Below are positions 43,925-52,459 of a stretch of 64,000 bases of DNA, in pieces; the stretch's first letter is position 1, and each line of letters opens with the position of its first letter. The notes below the pieces were generated by a model, which had not been told where the DNA came from, made no database searches, and saw only the letters and a program-made list of their open reading frames with translations. The DNA comes from Paralysiella testudinis (GTDB taxonomy: Bacteria > Pseudomonadota > Gammaproteobacteria > Burkholderiales > Neisseriaceae). The position numbers and the translations under genes were made by a program. The DNA lies in contig NZ_CP069798.1 in the NCBI RefSeq assembly GCF_016894345.1, positions 889,385-953,384 on the forward strand, given 5' to 3'.

Positions 43925-44764
43925 ATGAATATCTTATTACTGGGCGGCAGCGGCTTTATCGGCAAACGCGTGGCGGCTTTATTGCGCCAGCAAGGGCATC
44001 AAGTGGCCACGCCCGGCCATCGCGAGCTGGATTTACAGCACCTGCACGAAGCACAAGCCATGCCGTTGCTGGCGGATAAAGAGGTGGTGGTGAACTGCAT
44101 CGGCGTGATGAGCCGCCATGCCGATGTTTTGGAAACCATCCACCACCACGCCCCGGCGCAATTGGCACAATGGGCGCAGGCGGCGGGCGTGCAGCGCTGG
44201 GTGCAGCTTTCGGCTTTGGGGGCGGACGCGGCGCAAACCGTGGCGTTTGTGGGCAGCAAAGGGCGCGGTGATGCCGCCTTGTGCGCCAGCGGTTTGCAGC
44301 TGGCCTTGGCGCGGCCATCGGTGGTGTATGGGCGCGGCGGTGCCAGCTGCGAGCTGTTTATCAAACTGGCACATCTGCCTGTGCTGGCCTTGCCCGGCGG
44401 CGGCCGTTTCGACTTACAGCCGGTGCATGTGGGCGATGTGGCGGCAGGCATCGTCAATATGGTGAACCACCCGCCGCCGCACGCCACGGTGGTGAACATG
44501 ACCGGCAGCCAAATCTGCACCTTGGCCGGCTATCTGAGCACCCTGCGCCAAACCCTGCACCGCAAGCCGCCGCTGCGGGTGCTGCCGATACCGCTGGCGC
44601 TCATCAAGCCAATGTTGCCGCTCACCAATATCCTCAGCAACGGCATCCTCAGCCCCGGCAGCATCGCCTTGCTGGAAGCGGGCAACTGCGCCGACAACAC
44701 CGACTTTGCCGCTCTATTGGGGCGCGCACCGCTGGCGGCGGAACAGTTTGCGGCGGTGGATTAA
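43925..44764 (+). CDS. NAD(P)-binding SDR-type protein (NDUFA9/NmrA-like)
   Basis: 279 aa. The Rossmann start ILLLGGSGFIGKRVAALLRQQ with GGSGFIG, VVVNCIGVMS and the region ARPSVVYGRGG are typical of atypical SDR proteins related to complex I subunit NDUFA9 and YbjT. The usual YxxxK catalytic pair is not obvious (GSKGRGDAAL instead). AAGGAG precedes the ATG. It ends the GbsR-headed cluster; a DUS terminator (44792-44824) follows. Confidence 0.78.
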   Translation: MNILLLGGSGFIGKRVAALLRQQGHQVATPGHRELDLQHLHEAQAMPLLADKEVVVNCIGVMSRHADVLETIHHHAPAQLAQWAQAAGVQRWVQLSALGADAAQTVAFVGSKGRGDAALCASGLQLALARPSVVYGRGGASCELFIKLAHLPVLALPGGGRFDLQPVHVGDVAAGIVNMVNHPPPHATVVNMTGSQICTLAGYLSTLRQTLHRKPPLRVLPIPLALIKPMLPLTNILSNGILSPGSIALLEAGNCADNTDFAALLGRAPLAAEQFAAVD

Positions 44765-44791: not shown

Positions 44792-44824
44792 CAAGGCTGC
44801 CTGAAATGTATTCAGGCAGCCTTG
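44792..44824. terminator. DUS inverted-pair terminator between convergent operons
   Basis: CAAGGCTGCCTGAA pairs with TTCAGGCAGCCTTG over a 5-nt loop, followed by TGTATTTT. Confidence 0.75.
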
Positions 44825-44856: not shown

Positions 44857-46320
44857 TCAAGCATCGGATGCCAGCCACGGATACAGGCGGTAGAAACGCC
44901 GTTGGGCAAAGTCGCGCACCGAGCGGGCAAATATCCGCATGATGCGCTGCGCACGCGGGTCGAGAGAATCGGCGGCCAATTGGGTGTCCAGCAAGCTCAG
45001 CTGTTGCAGTGCCTGTGCGTGTTGTGCGGCCATCCATTGTTGCAGCGGCGGCTGGCGCAGCCAGCTGTCCGGCGGGGTGCCGTTGGGTGGCGGGCTGAGC
45101 TGTTGCCATTGTGTTTGCGGGATATTGATGATGCCTGCGGCGATGTCTTCGCGTAAATCGCGCATCACCGAGCACCAGCCCAATACGGTGGTGAGCGCGG
45201 GTGCGGCGGCGGCGCGGCTGGGCGAGCCCAATGCGGCCAGCAGCAAATCCAGCGATAAGGCAAAGGTGGCTTGGTGTTGCGCTGCCAATGCGATGGCCGA
45301 CCACACGGCACGTGATTCGGCGCGCAAGCGGTCGGCCCGCATCACCTGCAACAGCGCGCCGACATCGGCCAGCGCATGATTGGCATTCGGCAATAAGGCG
45401 AGGCGCTGTTGGAAGTCGTGTGCCAGCAGCATCAGGTTGTGGGCGGTGTGAAAACGGCGCTGCTGCCAAGCGGCCAACAGGTCGTCGGCCACCGCAATCG
45501 GTGCGGTGCGGCTGCGGCGGTCGCCGTCCATAATGTCGTCCACCGCTTGTAAAAAGCAGTAGCCGCTCAGCAATAGCGTGCCGCGTTGTGGCCGGCGCAG
45601 GCGCTGCGTGGCAATCATCAGGCTAATCAGGGCATAGCGGCGATGGCGTCGGGCAAACGCCCATTGATTGCAGCACCACAGCCATTCTAGCCGCACCCGC
45701 TGCAATACCGCGGCTTGCTGCGCCCATGGCGGCACGATGCGCCAAGCCAGCAGCGCCAGCACCGCACCGGCGATGATGTCGAGCAGGTGGTGTTCGTGGA
45801 TTGACACGGTGCTGGCGGCCACCAGCATCATCCACAGCCAAGAGAGCAAACGCGACAGCGGGCGCAGCACGGGCTGTAAGGCCAAGGCGGCGGTAAGGGC
45901 AAACGCCACGTGCAAAGAAGGAAAATGGTTGTGGCGCATGCTCAAGGTGGTGGCCAGCTCAAACCACGGCGCTGCCCAGCCGCTAACATGGCGCGGCGGA
46001 AAAGCGGTTTCTACCGGCAGCAACACAAAAAACACACAGGCCAACAGCAATTCGGCCAGTAAAGTGGCCAGCAGCGCCCATTGCGCCGTCCAGTTGAGCT
46101 TCACCACGCACCAAAACAACAGCAAGGGCATCAGCAAATACAGCGGCGCCCATTGCGGATAAAACGGCCATGCCGCCTCGCCGGGCAGTGCAGGATGCCA
46201 GCGCCACGGTATCCAATCGCTCACGATATTGGCACCGCCGTAGAACAGCAAAAACAGCAGCGCAAACACGGCCGCCAACACCCAGCCGAAAGTGCGCTGG
46301 CAGGGCAATGCGGTGTTCAC
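44857..46320 (-). CDS. Fusion of a PAP2-type phosphatase and a squalene/phytoene synthase-like domain
   Basis: About 487 aa. Residues 1-215 form six or so membrane helices with PAP2 (Aur1/Ipt1-like) motifs: RHNHFPSLHVAFAL and SIHEHHLLDIIAGA. From about 230 on, a soluble all-helical domain resembles head-to-head prenyl synthases: first Asp-rich motif LQAVDDIMDGDRR and second VMRDLREDIAAGIINIPQ. The Asp residues that bind magnesium are kept, but the Gln and Asn usually six and three residues before RD are Gly and Ser. It starts at GTG 46320, overlapping the desaturase stop (GTGA). The predicted pair of activities, joining prenyl diphosphates and removing phosphate, is inference. Confidence 0.8.
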   Translation of the reverse strand: MNTALPCQRTFGWVLAAVFALLFLLFYGGANIVSDWIPWRWHPALPGEAAWPFYPQWAPLYLLMPLLLFWCVVKLNWTAQWALLATLLAELLLACVFFVLLPVETAFPPRHVSGWAAPWFELATTLSMRHNHFPSLHVAFALTAALALQPVLRPLSRLLSWLWMMLVAASTVSIHEHHLLDIIAGAVLALLAWRIVPPWAQQAAVLQRVRLEWLWCCNQWAFARRHRRYALISLMIATQRLRRPQRGTLLLSGYCFLQAVDDIMDGDRRSRTAPIAVADDLLAAWQQRRFHTAHNLMLLAHDFQQRLALLPNANHALADVGALLQVMRADRLRAESRAVWSAIALAAQHQATFALSLDLLLAALGSPSRAAAAPALTTVLGWCSVMRDLREDIAAGIINIPQTQWQQLSPPPNGTPPDSWLRQPPLQQWMAAQHAQALQQLSLLDTQLAADSLDPRAQRIMRIFARSVRDFAQRRFYRLYPWLASDA

Positions 46321-47234
46321 AACACGTCTTTCTGTTGGAAGGTGGGGAAGTTTTCCAGCCGCTGCGGGCCGCGCCAACACGCGCGCCACACATCAATAAA
46401 CCGCGGGCCGGGGCTGGCGTGTTGCGGCAGTGCATGCCATGGCAGTTGCGGGTATTGGTGGTGTGCCAAATGCAGGTGGTAGTTGAGAAACACTCGCCGC
46501 AGCCAGCGCGGTACGCGCAGATTCCACGCGCCGGTGCGCGCATCCAGCGGCGAGAAGGCGTGATCGGTGTATTGCAAGGAGCTCCACATCAGCGCAAAGG
46601 CCGCATAGCAGGCAGCCCAGCCGACCAGCGACAAATCAAGCAGATAAAACAATGCCGCTTGCCAAGCCACGGCAGCGTAAATTTCCAAACGGGCAGTGAT
46701 GGGCGGCAGCTGATCCAGTGCGCCGATGTAGTGGTTGGCGCTGGTTTGCACGCCGCCTTGGCGGCCAAACAGGCGCAGCAAACCTTGGCGTACCCGGCGC
46801 GGCGTAACGGCATAGAGCAGCACGCCCAGGCTGGCCACCAGCCAATACAGGCCGGTGAAAATGGCATACCACTGGGCGTATTTCAGCCAACGCACGTCTT
46901 GCGGGTGCAATACGTCGAATTGCTCAGCGGCAGAACGGTTGTGGCGGTGGTGGGTAAGGTGGAATGTTTGCTGGATGGCCAAGCCGGTGGGAAACCAGCA
47001 GGCGGCCAAGCGCCCGGCCCAGCGGTTGAGTGTCGGATTAAGCGCAAAGATGCTGTGCACGCTTTCGTGTAGCAATGAAAACAGGGTGTTGTTGGTGAGC
47101 GAAAACAGCAAGGCCGCCGCCAGCACGCCCCACCACGGCGCATGGCTGGCAGTGTAGAGCCACAGCATATTGGCCGCCGATGCGGCGACGAGCAGCAGTA
47201 AATTAAGGGCGGTGGGCGGCGTAGCAGCGTTCAT
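46317..47234 (-). CDS. Fatty-acid-desaturase-like membrane di-iron enzyme
   Basis: 305 aa with about four to six membrane helices and three His boxes: HESVHSIF, FHLTHHRHN and HLAHHQYP. These mark membrane non-heme di-iron desaturases, hydroxylases and ketolases. The spacing is closest to short fatty acid desaturases; a carotenoid hydroxylase or ketolase is possible. It overlaps both neighbours by 4 bp, so it is made together with the Rieske protein and the PAP2/prenyl-synthase fusion. Confidence 0.8.
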   Translation of the reverse strand: MNAATPPTALNLLLLVAASAANMLWLYTASHAPWWGVLAAALLFSLTNNTLFSLLHESVHSIFALNPTLNRWAGRLAACWFPTGLAIQQTFHLTHHRHNRSAAEQFDVLHPQDVRWLKYAQWYAIFTGLYWLVASLGVLLYAVTPRRVRQGLLRLFGRQGGVQTSANHYIGALDQLPPITARLEIYAAVAWQAALFYLLDLSLVGWAACYAAFALMWSSLQYTDHAFSPLDARTGAWNLRVPRWLRRVFLNYHLHLAHHQYPQLPWHALPQHASPGPRFIDVWRACWRGPQRLENFPTFQQKDVL

Positions 47235-48208
47235 GGGTGGTGTTCCATATCGGCCAAGGTGTGCTGATAAGCCGTAACCGCCTGCACGCCGACATCGGCG
47301 GTATGGTTCAACTGTAGGCGCATGCCTTCCACCACGCGAAAATCCTTGCGCAAAAAAGCCAGATACAGCGCCCGCGCCAAGCGCAGCTGTAGGGTGGGCC
47401 AGCGGGCGCCGTGGGGAATGCCGATGGCGGCCAAGGCCACGCTGTGCCGTTGCTCCGGGCGGGTGCCGGGTGCGTCTTGCGGCAGTAGGGCGAATACGGC
47501 GCTGGTGCGAAATCGCCCCACACGGCTTTGCACCATAATGCTGCTGCCCACGCAGGTGTGCACCAAATGGATGACGCCGCCGGACAAGCGCTGCATCAGC
47601 CAGCTGGACAGACCGCCGCGCGGCAACACACGGGTGCGGTAGGTCATGCGCAAGCCGTTTTCAGGCAGTCTTTCAAACAGCGGCTCGCCCTCCACTTGGC
47701 GTTGGTGCACCGCTTGCATGTGTTCGAGGTCGAAACCATTGCAAATCATGGCGCGCCAGTCGGCGGCCACCGCTTGCGGCCCGGCAGCCAGCCAATGATG
47801 GCCGCCATCGCTACCCGAAAACGGCAGCGGCGGTATGGCGGCGGCAGGCGGGTGCAGCCAAATCAGGCCAAAATGCTCGGCGCTTGGCCAAGCGCGCACG
47901 GCCAAACGGCAGCCGGCCTTGATGTGTTCAGGCAGCGTGGGGGCGGCGGTTTGCGGTAATAAGTGGCAAGCGTGCAGGCCGCACACCAATGCCTCGCCGC
48001 ACACTTGGGCATTGTGCAAATGGGCGCCCATGTGCGGGCAAAAAGCATCGGTGGCGTGAAGTGTGCCGCTGTGGCCGCGATACAGCACCCAAGGTTGCCC
48101 GGCCAGGTGGCCGCTGTGTATTTGGCCGGGGCGCAACGCATCGGCACGCGCTACGGCATACCAGCCTTGCGGCCAGTGTTTCCAGTTGTCGGCGGGGTCT
48201 TGTGTCAT
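47231..48208 (-). CDS. Rieske-type non-heme iron oxygenase
   Basis: About 325 aa. The Rieske motif is C57-x-H59 and C76-x-x-H79 (FCPHMGAHL, CGLHACHLL), followed by a mononuclear iron site NGFDLEHMQAVHQ (D-x2-H-x4-H). The C-terminal domain resembles KshA/DAF-36-like enzymes that act on hydrophobic substrates. No ferredoxin or reductase lies next to it, though several are elsewhere in the window. The start is ATG 48208; a TTG two codons upstream is less likely. Confidence 0.82.
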   Translation of the reverse strand: MTQDPADNWKHWPQGWYAVARADALRPGQIHSGHLAGQPWVLYRGHSGTLHATDAFCPHMGAHLHNAQVCGEALVCGLHACHLLPQTAAPTLPEHIKAGCRLAVRAWPSAEHFGLIWLHPPAAAIPPLPFSGSDGGHHWLAAGPQAVAADWRAMICNGFDLEHMQAVHQRQVEGEPLFERLPENGLRMTYRTRVLPRGGLSSWLMQRLSGGVIHLVHTCVGSSIMVQSRVGRFRTSAVFALLPQDAPGTRPEQRHSVALAAIGIPHGARWPTLQLRLARALYLAFLRKDFRVVEGMRLQLNHTADVGVQAVTAYQHTLADMEHHP

Positions 48209-48241
48209 CGGCAAAGGGTGCGATTAAGAGAATAAAGAATT

Positions 48242-48910
48242 TCAGGCAGCCTTGCGGCGCTGGCGGCGACCAAACCAAAAACCCAGCAGCGCGGCGGCCA
48301 GTGCGGCGGTGGCCGCGCCGCCCAATAGCCATTGGCGTTGGGCGTTGAGCACCGGATTGTCGAAAATATTGGCCGAATAATGGAAATTGGCAATCAGCCA
48401 GCGCTGCTCATACCGAATCAGGGTGGCGCTCCATTGCGGGCTTACGTTGATGGTTTGGCCGTTGCCCAGCTCGTAGTGGTCGTTGCTGTGGCCAAAAGCC
48501 ACGGCGGTGTCGCCGTTATAGAGGTGCGATAAGGCTTCAACTTCAAATTGGGTGGTAACCGAGCGCACCAGCGGATTGGGGCCGTTGAGCATGGTATCGA
48601 AATATTGGCGGATGCCTTCTTTACCAATCACGCGATCGCCGTTCATGGTGGTGAACACCACATTGTCGGTTACATTGTCCAGTAAGCTGTTCAGGTCGCG
48701 TTGGTTCAGTGCGGTTTGCATGCGGTCGCGCAAATCGCGCAATTGCTGGTGTAAGGCCTCATCGGCTGGCACGGCTTGGATGCTGGCGGCAGGGGCAGAA
48801 GCAGAAGCAGCGTTGGTGCTGGCGGGTGCGGCGTTGGCCAAGGGTTGAAACAGCAGCACTGCCGCCAATAAGCAGGCCGCCGTGATGCGGGTGGGCATGG
48901 AAAAGGTCAT
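48242..48910 (-). CDS. Exported, membrane-anchored NTF2/SnoaL-like protein
   Basis: About 222 aa. A signal sequence (ending near FQPLANAAPA), an Ala/Ser-rich linker, then an NTF2/DUF4440-like domain (LHQQLRDLRDRMQTALNQRDL, VVFTTMNGDRVIGKEGIRQYF, AVAFGHSNDHYEL, IRYEQRWLIANFHYSANIF), and a C-terminal helix with a basic end (LLGFWFGRRQRRKAA). The stop codon comes from a DUS (AAG GCT GCC TGA). It lies 33 bp before the Rieske gene and is probably the first gene of that operon. It could bind a hydrophobic ligand. Confidence 0.75.
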   Translation of the reverse strand: MTFSMPTRITAACLLAAVLLFQPLANAAPASTNAASASAPAASIQAVPADEALHQQLRDLRDRMQTALNQRDLNSLLDNVTDNVVFTTMNGDRVIGKEGIRQYFDTMLNGPNPLVRSVTTQFEVEALSHLYNGDTAVAFGHSNDHYELGNGQTINVSPQWSATLIRYEQRWLIANFHYSANIFDNPVLNAQRQWLLGGAATAALAAALLGFWFGRRQRRKAA

Positions 48911-50006: not shown

Positions 50007-51119
50007 ATGCTCACCACCGCCGTTTCTCCCGCCAACACCCAATTGCTTGCCGCTGTAGACACCATTGCCCGGCAAGACTTGCAACCCTTGGCACACCGCA
50101 TCGACCGCGGCCATTACCCGTTGGAAATCATGGCCAAGCTGGGGCAAGCCGGGGCGTTTGCCGCCCATCTGCAAAGCCAAGGCTCGCGCTTCGATACCGC
50201 CATCGATGCCATGCAAATCGTGAGCCGTGCCTGCGGCGCCACCGGCTTTCTCACGTGGGCGCACCAGGTGTGCGGCCTTTATTTGGACGCCAGCGACAAT
50301 CCGGCGCTGCGCGGCCAAGTGCTGAGCGACCACGCCTATGGCAAAACCTTTGGCGGCACCGCGCTTTCCAATCCGATGAAAACCTGGGCCAATATCGAGC
50401 CGATGCTGTTGCGCGCCAAAAAAGTGCCCGGCGGCTATTCGGTGAGCGGTGCCTTGCCGTGGGTGAGCCATATTGCTTATGGCCAGCATTGCGGCGCGGT
50501 GGCGCAAGTGGAAGGCGGCAAAGATCACGACATTATGTTTTTGCTGCGCTTGGACGAAACGCGGGTGAAGCTGGCGGCCTGCCCCGAATTTAGCGGCATG
50601 GAAGGCACCAGCACCTGGAGCATTCATTTAAAAGACTTTTTTGTCGGCAGCGACGACATCATTGCCGACCCGGCCAAGCCCTTTATCGCCCGCATTCGCG
50701 CCGCTTTTGTGCTGCTGCAAATGGGCATCGGCTTGGGCGTGGTGCAAGGCAGCATCGACGATATGCTCGAAGTGGCGCCGGTGTTGGGGCATGTTAATCA
50801 ATTTTTGGAAGACCAAACCGGCAGCTTGCAATTGGCGCTAGACAAGGCCGAACAGCAAACCCGTCTATTAGCGCAAACCCCGTTTGAAACCAGCAAAGAC
50901 TATTTGCTCGATGTGCTCGACTTGCGCATCCAAGGTGCCAAGCTCGGTTTGCAAGCCAGCCAGGCCGCGCTGCTGCACCAAGGCGCGCGCGGCTATTTGG
51001 CCAATGCCAACCCTCAGCGGCGCATACGTGAAGCGCAATTCGTGGCCATTGTTACCCCCGCCATCAAACACCTGCGCTATCTGGTGCAGCAAATCATGAG
51101 CGAGGAACTGCCCGCATGA
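50007..51119 (+). CDS. Acyl-CoA dehydrogenase-family flavoprotein
   Basis: 370 aa with the acyl-CoA dehydrogenase fold: helical N-terminus, a middle beta domain ([31 protein letters not shown]) and a C-terminal helical domain. The catalytic Glu of true dehydrogenases is not evident, and the SGxLPWVS pattern recalls flavin monooxygenase relatives that use reduced flavin from a partner. Its stop overlaps the start of the rubredoxin-reductase gene (ATGA), so that protein is a likely electron partner. The substrate is unknown. Confidence 0.78.
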
Positions 51120-52459
51120 GCCAGCCTGAATGGAAAAAATACATCTGCCGCGCCTGCGGTTTGATTTACGACGAAGCACTGGGCGACCCCGACAGCGGCA
51201 TCGCCCCCGGCACCCGCTTTGCCGACATTCCCGCTGATTGGGTATGCCCCTTGTGCGGTGTGGGTAAGGCCGATTTTGAGCCTTATGTACCGCGCACACC
51301 CTTGGTGGCAGCCAACCCGGCGGTGATGCCGGTGGACAACGGCGGCGTGGTGGTCGTGGGCGGCGGCATGGCCGGCTGGGCGGTAGTGGAAGCCTTGCGT
51401 GCGTTGGATCAACACCTGCCGATTAAGCTGATTAGCGCCTGTGCGGCTGATCGCTACCACAAGCCCGAGCTATCCGTGGCCATCAGCCGCGGCAGAAACA
51501 GCCGCCAATTGGTGAAACAAAGCGCCGCCGATGCGGCACAAGCGCTGAATGTGCAGCTGTTGGCGCACACCTTTGTCATCAACATCGACAGCGCCGCCAA
51601 AACCATCCACACCACCCGTGGCGACTTCGGCTGGGATAAGCTGGTACTGGCCGCCGGAGCCACCCCGACGCTGCCTGAAACCTTGCCGCCCAGCTTATGC
51701 TGGCGCGTAAACCAACTGGGCAGTTTCGACAAACTGTTTGCCGTGCTGGCGCAAAAACCACAGCACGTGGCGGTGGTGGGCGCGGGCATGATTGGCACCG
51801 AGCTGGCCGAAGACATGGCGCGCGCCGGGCATCGCGTTACCCTAATCGATCGCACGCCGCATCCCTTGGGCGGCTTACTGCCGCCGCAGGCGGGCACAAA
51901 GCTTCAGGCAGCCTTGGCCGCACAGGGCGTGACTTATTTGGGGCAAACCCATGTGGAAAACCTGAGCCGTTTGGCCGACGGAAGCTACCAGCTACAACTG
52001 CAAGACGGCCGCGGCAACCCTACCGTGTTGCAGGCCGATCAAGTGGTGGCCGCCACCGGCTTAGCCATCGACAGCCGCCTGCCCGAGCGCGCCGGCGTAT
52101 TGTTTCATCCACAACACGGCATTGTGGTGGACGAACACAGCCTGCAAACCAGCCAGCCGGATATTTATGCCTTGGGCGACTGTGTCGGCATCAACGGTCA
52201 AAGCTGCCGCTTTATCGCGCCCTTGCGCCGCCAAGCCGAAACCATCGCCGCCGAAATCACCGGCACCGAACACAGCGGCTATGAGCATACCGACCCGGTG
52301 GTGCGCCTGAAAACCCGCAGCGTGGGCGTGGAAGTGTTGGGCCGCCCGCAGCCCGGTGCCGCTTGGCAAGTAGAGGCCGATAATGCCGACGCCTTGGTGC
52401 TGTACCAGCCGCAAAGCGGCGGCCAAAACGCCAGAGTTACGCTCACCCTGCGCGGATAA
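51116..52459 (+). CDS. Rubredoxin fused to NAD(P)H-rubredoxin reductase
   Basis: 447 aa. Residues 1-55 are a rubredoxin with C11, C14, C44 and C47 ([21 protein letters not shown]) that bind one iron. The rest is a pyridine-nucleotide-disulfide-type FAD reductase with two Rossmann motifs ([17 protein letters not shown] and [17 protein letters not shown]) and the FAD motif [12 protein letters not shown]. It would pass electrons from NAD(P)H to its own iron centre and then to a partner, perhaps the flavoprotein upstream or the iron enzymes nearby. A DUS is embedded in frame. Confidence 0.88.

Follow-up and report, generated by a model that had tools for sequence, protein, structure and literature searches.

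Four adjacent genes in a 64,000-nucleotide stretch of the Paralysiella testudinis genome (the window; positions 889385-953384 of a 2.9-Mb single-contig genome) encode an NTF2-like protein, a Rieske oxygenase (Rieske A), a membrane desaturase, and a fusion of a PAP2 membrane domain with a squalene-synthase-like (SQS-like) domain. In our judgment there is about an even chance that they form a conserved module (module A) of a pathway for an oxidized, probably prenylated or isoprenoid-containing membrane lipid, in which the fusion would join the prenyl group and its PAP2 domain would handle the phosphate. The enzyme families are known, and it is apparently their combination that is new. The Rieske, desaturase and fusion trio appears to make up one module of a more extensive pathway, whose other module (module B) is mostly not found in P. 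testudinis.

All four genes lie on the minus strand. The NTF2-like gene (48242..48910; ATG at 48910, TGA at 48242) encodes a DUF4440/SnoaL-like protein of the SgcJ/EcaC type, in which a signal peptide and a membrane helix at the C-terminus were recognized by eye, and is followed after a 33-bp gap by the gene for the KshA/SxtT-like Rieske A (47231..48208; ATG at 48208, or possibly a TTG two codons upstream, TGA at 47231). The desaturase gene (46317..47234; ATG at 47234, TGA at 46317), for a membrane di-iron FA_desaturase/AlkB-like enzyme, overlaps the Rieske A gene by 4 bp (ATGA) and the fusion gene by another 4 bp (GTGA). The fusion gene (44857..46320; GTG at 46320, TGA at 44857) encodes 487 amino acids; the list of open reading frames starts it at GTG 46389, and GTG 46320 matches the Met position in the N. 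elongata ortholog. Its AUR1/SMSr-like PAP2 domain covers about residues 1-200 (45721..46320) and its SQS_PSY-superfamily domain about residues 204-487 (44857..45711). The gene order, both overlaps and the upstream NTF2-like gene of the original prediction were all recovered from the open frames, and family alignments bore out its claim that the two Rieske iron sites, the desaturase His boxes, both Asp-rich motifs of the fusion and the PAP2 His and Asp (PSLH and HxxxD) are kept.

The same neighborhood recurs outside the Neisseriaceae, as the original prediction had proposed to look for. A non-exhaustive scan of named genomes with two peptide patterns returned 22 loci, three in Neisseriaceae and 19 elsewhere; both patterns were drawn from the C-terminal domain, and all loci are therefore selected for the SQS-like domain. 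In every one of the non-Neisseriaceae loci (19/19), the SQS-like gene has the desaturase gene as its neighbor; 18 of them also have a Rieske A gene nearby, and 14 an NTF2-like gene within the DNA stretch examined, so a merely local arrangement was rejected. Fourteen of the 19 are Myxococcaceae-like (13 so named and one labelled Comamonas), and the remaining five are metagenome-assembled genomes (MAGs) of Planctomycetota, Gammaproteobacteria, Acidobacteria, Bacteriovoracaceae and Elusimicrobia. In the planctomycete MAG (L095), desaturase, PAP2 and SQS are encoded in one open frame of 834 residues. The persistence of the gene set across such distant bacteria (Myxococcaceae, Neisseriaceae and MAGs of several phyla) suggests that it is probably useful to its carriers. 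The record titled Comamonas sp. KCTC 72670 (L087) combines a Myxococcaceae-like locus with a 9-Mb assembly, and its label may be wrong.

Among 83 Neisseriaceae genomes, the full fusion was found in five, namely P. testudinis itself (G000), G004, G012, G021 and G065, not counting 26 further genomes that match through the PAP2 part only. The same five carry Rieske A at 56% identity or more (seven further genomes with proteins at 30% or less are left out), and the desaturase occurs in these five and in no other. The chance of one gene falling on those five genomes would be 3.4e-8 if placements were independent, but the genomes are related. Within the family the module A genes are mostly scattered: desaturase and fusion genes sit next to each other in the window and in N. 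elongata alone, the order NTF2-Rieske-desaturase is found in the window and G004, Rieske and desaturase genes adjoin in Alysiella, and in G012 these two are some 7 kb apart. The NTF2-like gene, for which no genome-wide search was made, turned up in just two of the Neisseriaceae loci read, those of the window and G004; the G004 ortholog, in the same gene order, has 63-67% identity. Near the fusion gene of G012 (L033) there are repeats resembling clustered regularly interspaced short palindromic repeats (by eye) and a cas2 gene.

Module A tends to be accompanied by module B, composed of a GH3 ligase, GNAT-type acyltransferases, a second Rieske protein (Rieske B), a small membrane protein and an RnfD-UnbV protein. 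GH3 occurs in four of the 83 family genomes, every one a carrier of module A, and close orthologs of Rieske B and of a GNAT-like protein occur in the same four (the Rieske B count omits four further genomes at 25-27%). RnfD-UnbV is full-length in these four, the G004 frame being open over 901 residues with a single TAA counted as the end of the gene, and is present as a fragment in P. testudinis. Outside the family, GH3 was found in 19/19 carriers of module A and in one of 14 control genomes. RnfD-UnbV and Rieske B stand beside GH3 in seven of the eight GH3 loci examined, which represent eight of 21 places, one each from eight of the 19 genomes. In Alysiella, module B adjoins the Rieske A and desaturase genes, and in the planctomycete and acidobacterial MAGs module A has GH3 and GNAT-type genes next to it; in the Bacteriovoracaceae MAG, GH3 is the only module B gene observed, on a 5-kb contig. 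Both modules are present in the genome of Myxococcus xanthus.

Rieske A has the CxH...CxxH motif together with D160, H163, H168 and D305 invariant in 15/15 aligned sequences; with its His/His/Asp mononuclear iron site and bridging Asp it qualifies as a Rieske oxygenase, and its closest solved proteins are KshA and SxtDIOX. The desaturase scores 80.4 bits against FA_desaturase (cut-off 29.7), and H56/E57/H60, H92/H95/H96, H225 and H258/H259 are invariant in 17/17 aligned sequences. Its best folds were the chloroplast Ycf2/Orf2971-FtsHi motor subunit (Z 20.3) and AlkB (Z 14.6) in a ranking that, like that for the fusion below, covered listed families only, so that others may also align; its profile had no match among PDB sequences at an E-value (E) of 1. 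A fold common to fusion and desaturase was considered and rejected (profile comparison, E 0.85). Elsewhere in the window, at 50007-52459, a gene for an acyl-CoA-dehydrogenase-like protein overlaps one whose product joins a rubredoxin to a NorW-like reductase; a rubredoxin could in principle supply an AlkB-like enzyme.

The second domain of the fusion is a divergent domain of the squalene/phytoene-synthase fold. Library scans gave SQS_PSY (PF00494) alone, by which membership of another known family was rejected; a better score to a family other than the prenyl synthases, a possibility raised in the original prediction, was thus not observed, and the best-aligned fold was HpnC. The N. elongata ortholog lies above the PF00494 cut-off (37.1 bits vs 26), six of 24 aligned members match the family at E 0.01 (best 2.5e-8), and the SQS domain profile aligned with one of HpnC/HpnD type across 208 columns (E 6e-6, probability 85%). 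Of the free-standing SQS-like proteins, that of Bacteriovoracaceae (L100) matched PF00494 at E 6e-4 and that of Elusimicrobia (L101, 277 aa) had no match at 0.01. The AlphaFold2 model of the fusion had a predicted local distance difference test score of 93.4 and a predicted template modeling score of 0.88, and its SQS domain aligned best to HpnC (4hd1; Z 18.4, root-mean-square deviation 3.7 Å, 249 residues), with the carbazole prenyltransferase LvqB4 and CrtM-like proteins within 1 Z. A Foldseek search with the whole fusion gave no match at E 0.001, and comparisons of the fusion with PDB sequences (phmmer) and searches of plasmid and viral collections led nowhere.

Both Asp-rich Mg-binding motifs, DDxxD and RDxxxD, are present in 24/24 fusion-family members. 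For other residues the domain was compared with 12 SQS_PSY rows, seven of them intact proteins (named HpnC/HpnD by eye) and five degenerate PF00494 proteins. In 15/15 sequences, Ser occupies the position of motif 2 at which the seven intact proteins have Asn, and the Tyr of their YC...G motif is replaced by Gln or His. We infer from the alignment that this Asn and Tyr probably mark head-to-head synthase activity; since both are absent, the domain was filed in the SQS_PSY superfamily and not as a squalene or phytoene synthase. The original prediction of a PAP2/head-to-head prenyl-synthase fusion accordingly stands for a PAP2 domain joined to an SQS-superfamily domain, but neither the head-to-head synthase nor the squalene- or phytoene-like product it suggested is supported as written, given these replacements and the tie of HpnC with other folds. 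HpnC, HpnD and CrtM (PF00494) have the fold, the two Asp-rich motifs and the domain length in common with the fusion domain, which differs from them in the Ser, the missing Tyr, its joining to PAP2 and the absence of a Pfam match to the window copy (its C-terminal half, at E 0.1). LvqB4 and CqsB4, carbazole prenyltransferases, share the fold (Z 17.8 and 17.2), but at 11-12% identity. Five PF00494 proteins of family genomes (L105, L106, L110, L111 and L112) lack some residues of the Asp-rich motifs and may be degenerate or repurposed.

If the domain were nevertheless an ordinary squalene- or phytoene-type synthase, the module would make and oxidize a C30 or C40 hydrocarbon. The retained Asp-rich motifs, HpnC as best-aligned solved fold and SQS_PSY as sole Pfam family all agree with such an enzyme, but the replacement of the motif-2 Asn and the YC...G Tyr in every sequence compared does not, and a hydrocarbon product needs no PAP2 part. 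Moreover, genes resembling HpnC, HpnD and HpnE are already present in P. testudinis (two of them PF00494; named by eye): a PF00494 search of its genome at E 10 matched two other genes and not the fusion. PF00494 proteins occur in 69 of the 83 family genomes, and HpnC/HpnD-type genes are therefore not specific to carriers, so that squalene supply needs no fusion. An ordinary synthase thus appears quite improbable.

The N-terminal half of the fusion matches PAP2_3 (42.7 bits, cut-off 27) and PAP2 (35.7, cut-off 27.2), and the catalytic motifs PS-x-H and H-x3-D are present (the former as PSLH) in 22/22 fusion-family members that have a PAP2 part (by eye). It aligns with the sphingomyelin-synthase-related protein SMSr (Z 15.4, root-mean-square deviation 3.8 Å, 199 residues), and weak profile matches were obtained to AUR1 (E 0.003) and LpxE (E 0.055); it is thus like the PAP2-fold lipid phosphotransferases AUR1 and SMSr and like LpxE, by weak sequence match or, for SMSr, by fold. 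To our knowledge, none of these proteins carries an SQS-like domain. A paralog in P. testudinis (G000:C1:325680), which we take by eye to be a YnbD-like PAP2/dual-specificity phosphatase, is alike in its PAP2 half (28% identity) but differs in its C-terminal half and neighbors; PAP2 with a dual-specificity-phosphatase-like half (by eye) is an arrangement that other family proteins have as well.

Relatives of the PAP2 half were found in six of 368 other genomes of the class Gammaproteobacteria (E 1e-20). An NTF2-like gene lies beside all six, a desaturase of this kind is in the locus in four and GH3 in three, accompanied by variable combinations of GNAT-type, B12 radical SAM, Rieske or P450 genes and, in one cluster, by RnfD-UnbV; the sixth relative (G280) belongs to a YnbABCD-like operon (by eye). 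These SQS-less clusters would fit a pathway that builds a GH3-made, amino-acid-linked fatty lipid, in which PAP2 would act as the lipid phosphatase or transfer the head group and the SQS-like domain would be a later addition for another allylic diphosphate or for binding. The resemblance of the PAP2 part to AUR1 and SMSr fits this, as does the weak match of the module B GH3 to the lyso-ornithine lipid synthetase OlsH (48.8 bits, cut-off 620). Nevertheless, the metal-site Asp residues kept in 24/24 members argue for catalysis by the SQS-like domain, and the SQS part still adjoins the desaturase in two phyla where it has no PAP2 match; we regard a pathway of this kind as unlikely. A family of about 320 residues recurs in the gammaproteobacterial clusters (L075:3769-4722, L077:7451-8413 and L079:2188-3252); two members scanned had no Pfam match, and one scanned had no NCBIfam match.

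For the oxidized isoprenoid lipid that we favor, a substrate, an order of steps, a product and a sidedness can be suggested from gene content, conservation, co-occurrence, predicted folds and retained metal-site residues. The SQS-fold domain would use its two Asp-rich Mg sites to bind an allylic diphosphate, whose prenyl group it would join to a lipid or to a second isoprenoid, and at the membrane the PAP2 domain would either strip the product of its phosphate group or transfer that group. The desaturase/AlkB-like enzyme and Rieske A might then insert oxygen or double bonds into the hydrophobic product, and the NTF2-like protein may act on or bind it on the periplasmic side (topology by eye). 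In a special form, a presqualene-type diphosphate would be dephosphorylated directly to a cyclopropyl alcohol, which the desaturase and Rieske A would then oxidize. We tentatively raise the possibility that the product belongs to a hitherto unrecognized class of isoprenoid lipids in bacterial membranes, with an SQS-like/desaturase/Rieske core in six phyla and, in most lineages, a transmembrane bifunctional prenyl-transfer-PAP2 enzyme.

Several observations weigh against this proposal. Class I terpene synthases also align to the SQS domain (Z 15-16, 2-3 Z below HpnC), so that SQS chemistry is not singled out by the fold alone, and the window copy itself escapes Pfam, as noted above. In the Bacteriovoracaceae and Elusimicrobia loci, the SQS part stands beside the desaturase with no PAP2 match found, and none of the six gammaproteobacterial loci has an SQS-like part; neither half is thus indispensable. 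The five Neisseriaceae desaturases form one clade (Shimodaira-Hasegawa-like approximate likelihood ratio test 99), and their co-occurrence with the other genes therefore does not amount to five independent events. As the GH3 background is known from the 14 control genomes only, its presence in 19/19 carriers may partly reflect GH3-rich lineages. Finally, the P. testudinis genome had no match to GH3 at E 0.001, to Rieske B at E 1e-20 or to the GNAT-like protein at E 1e-15 (the genes for the 258-residue GNAT and the small membrane protein were outside this search), and the pathway may therefore be incomplete there.

The missing module B genes would also be expected if module A in P. testudinis were the leftover of a decaying pathway from which nothing notable is made. 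Of RnfD-UnbV, likewise, only residues 724-899 of 902 were found (65% identity), at a distance of about 1 kb from an open frame that encodes a Mu transposase C-terminal domain (L132:9462-13450; G000:C1 near 2857467). Against decay, all four module A frames are intact and tightly spaced, with every checked catalytic residue kept, and we consider a mere leftover rather unlikely; module A is intact in P. testudinis, whereas the pathway as a whole is probably incomplete. One of the Mu-like, phage-type frames near the fragment encodes 716 residues and combines the Mu transposase C-terminal domain with a CdiA C-terminal tRNase domain; next to it is a 107-residue gene without a Pfam match.

The literature searched, which mostly lacks subscription papers and includes no preprints, contained no description of the fusion or the gene set among the best matches, so that absence from print is unproven; within this incomplete coverage, the original statement that no pathway with this set has been described held up. 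One comparable system is the gromomycin cluster, in which Rieske oxygenases occur together with a polyprenyl synthase, a PAP2 phosphatase, a putative prenyltransferase and a P450, and whose product is a guanidino triterpene made without the squalene route (PMC12105684). Its main text names no desaturase, and the passages available describe no fusion; compared with module A by description and not by sequence, it shows that a single isoprenoid pathway can employ Rieske oxygenases together with a polyprenyl synthase and PAP2 (PMC12105684). The ornithine-lipid synthetase OlsH is a GH3-type ligase like that of module B, to which it is the weak match given above, and no Rieske, desaturase or radical SAM protein appears in the available text of its paper (PMC12493201). 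The product of the module thus seems not to have been described, the fusion offers a lead from prenyl-diphosphate chemistry to PAP2 lipid chemistry, and M. xanthus, a harmless and tractable species with both modules, is an organism in which the product can be sought.

Other features of the region are minor. The guanine-plus-cytosine fraction is 0.58-0.63 in the operon and 0.47-0.62 around it, which is not decisive, and no verdict on horizontal acquisition was based on composition alone. A promoter scan of the region found two sites (1.5 expected), and terminator-like sites were not enriched (seven vs 6.5 in shuffles). The longest of the latter (14 pairs) is a stem-loop at 44792..44824, assigned to no strand, formed by an inverted pair of AGGCTGCCTGAA elements in the space that separates the fusion gene from a convergent plus-strand gene (43925-44764); with its T-rich tail on the plus strand, it fits better as terminator of the convergent gene than of the fusion gene. 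The element AGGCTGCCTGAA, which resembles the Simonsiella-type DNA uptake sequence of Neisseriaceae, occurs in 57 copies in the window (0.03 expected), inverted pairs being common, and the stop codon of the NTF2-like gene sits inside one copy at 48241-48252.

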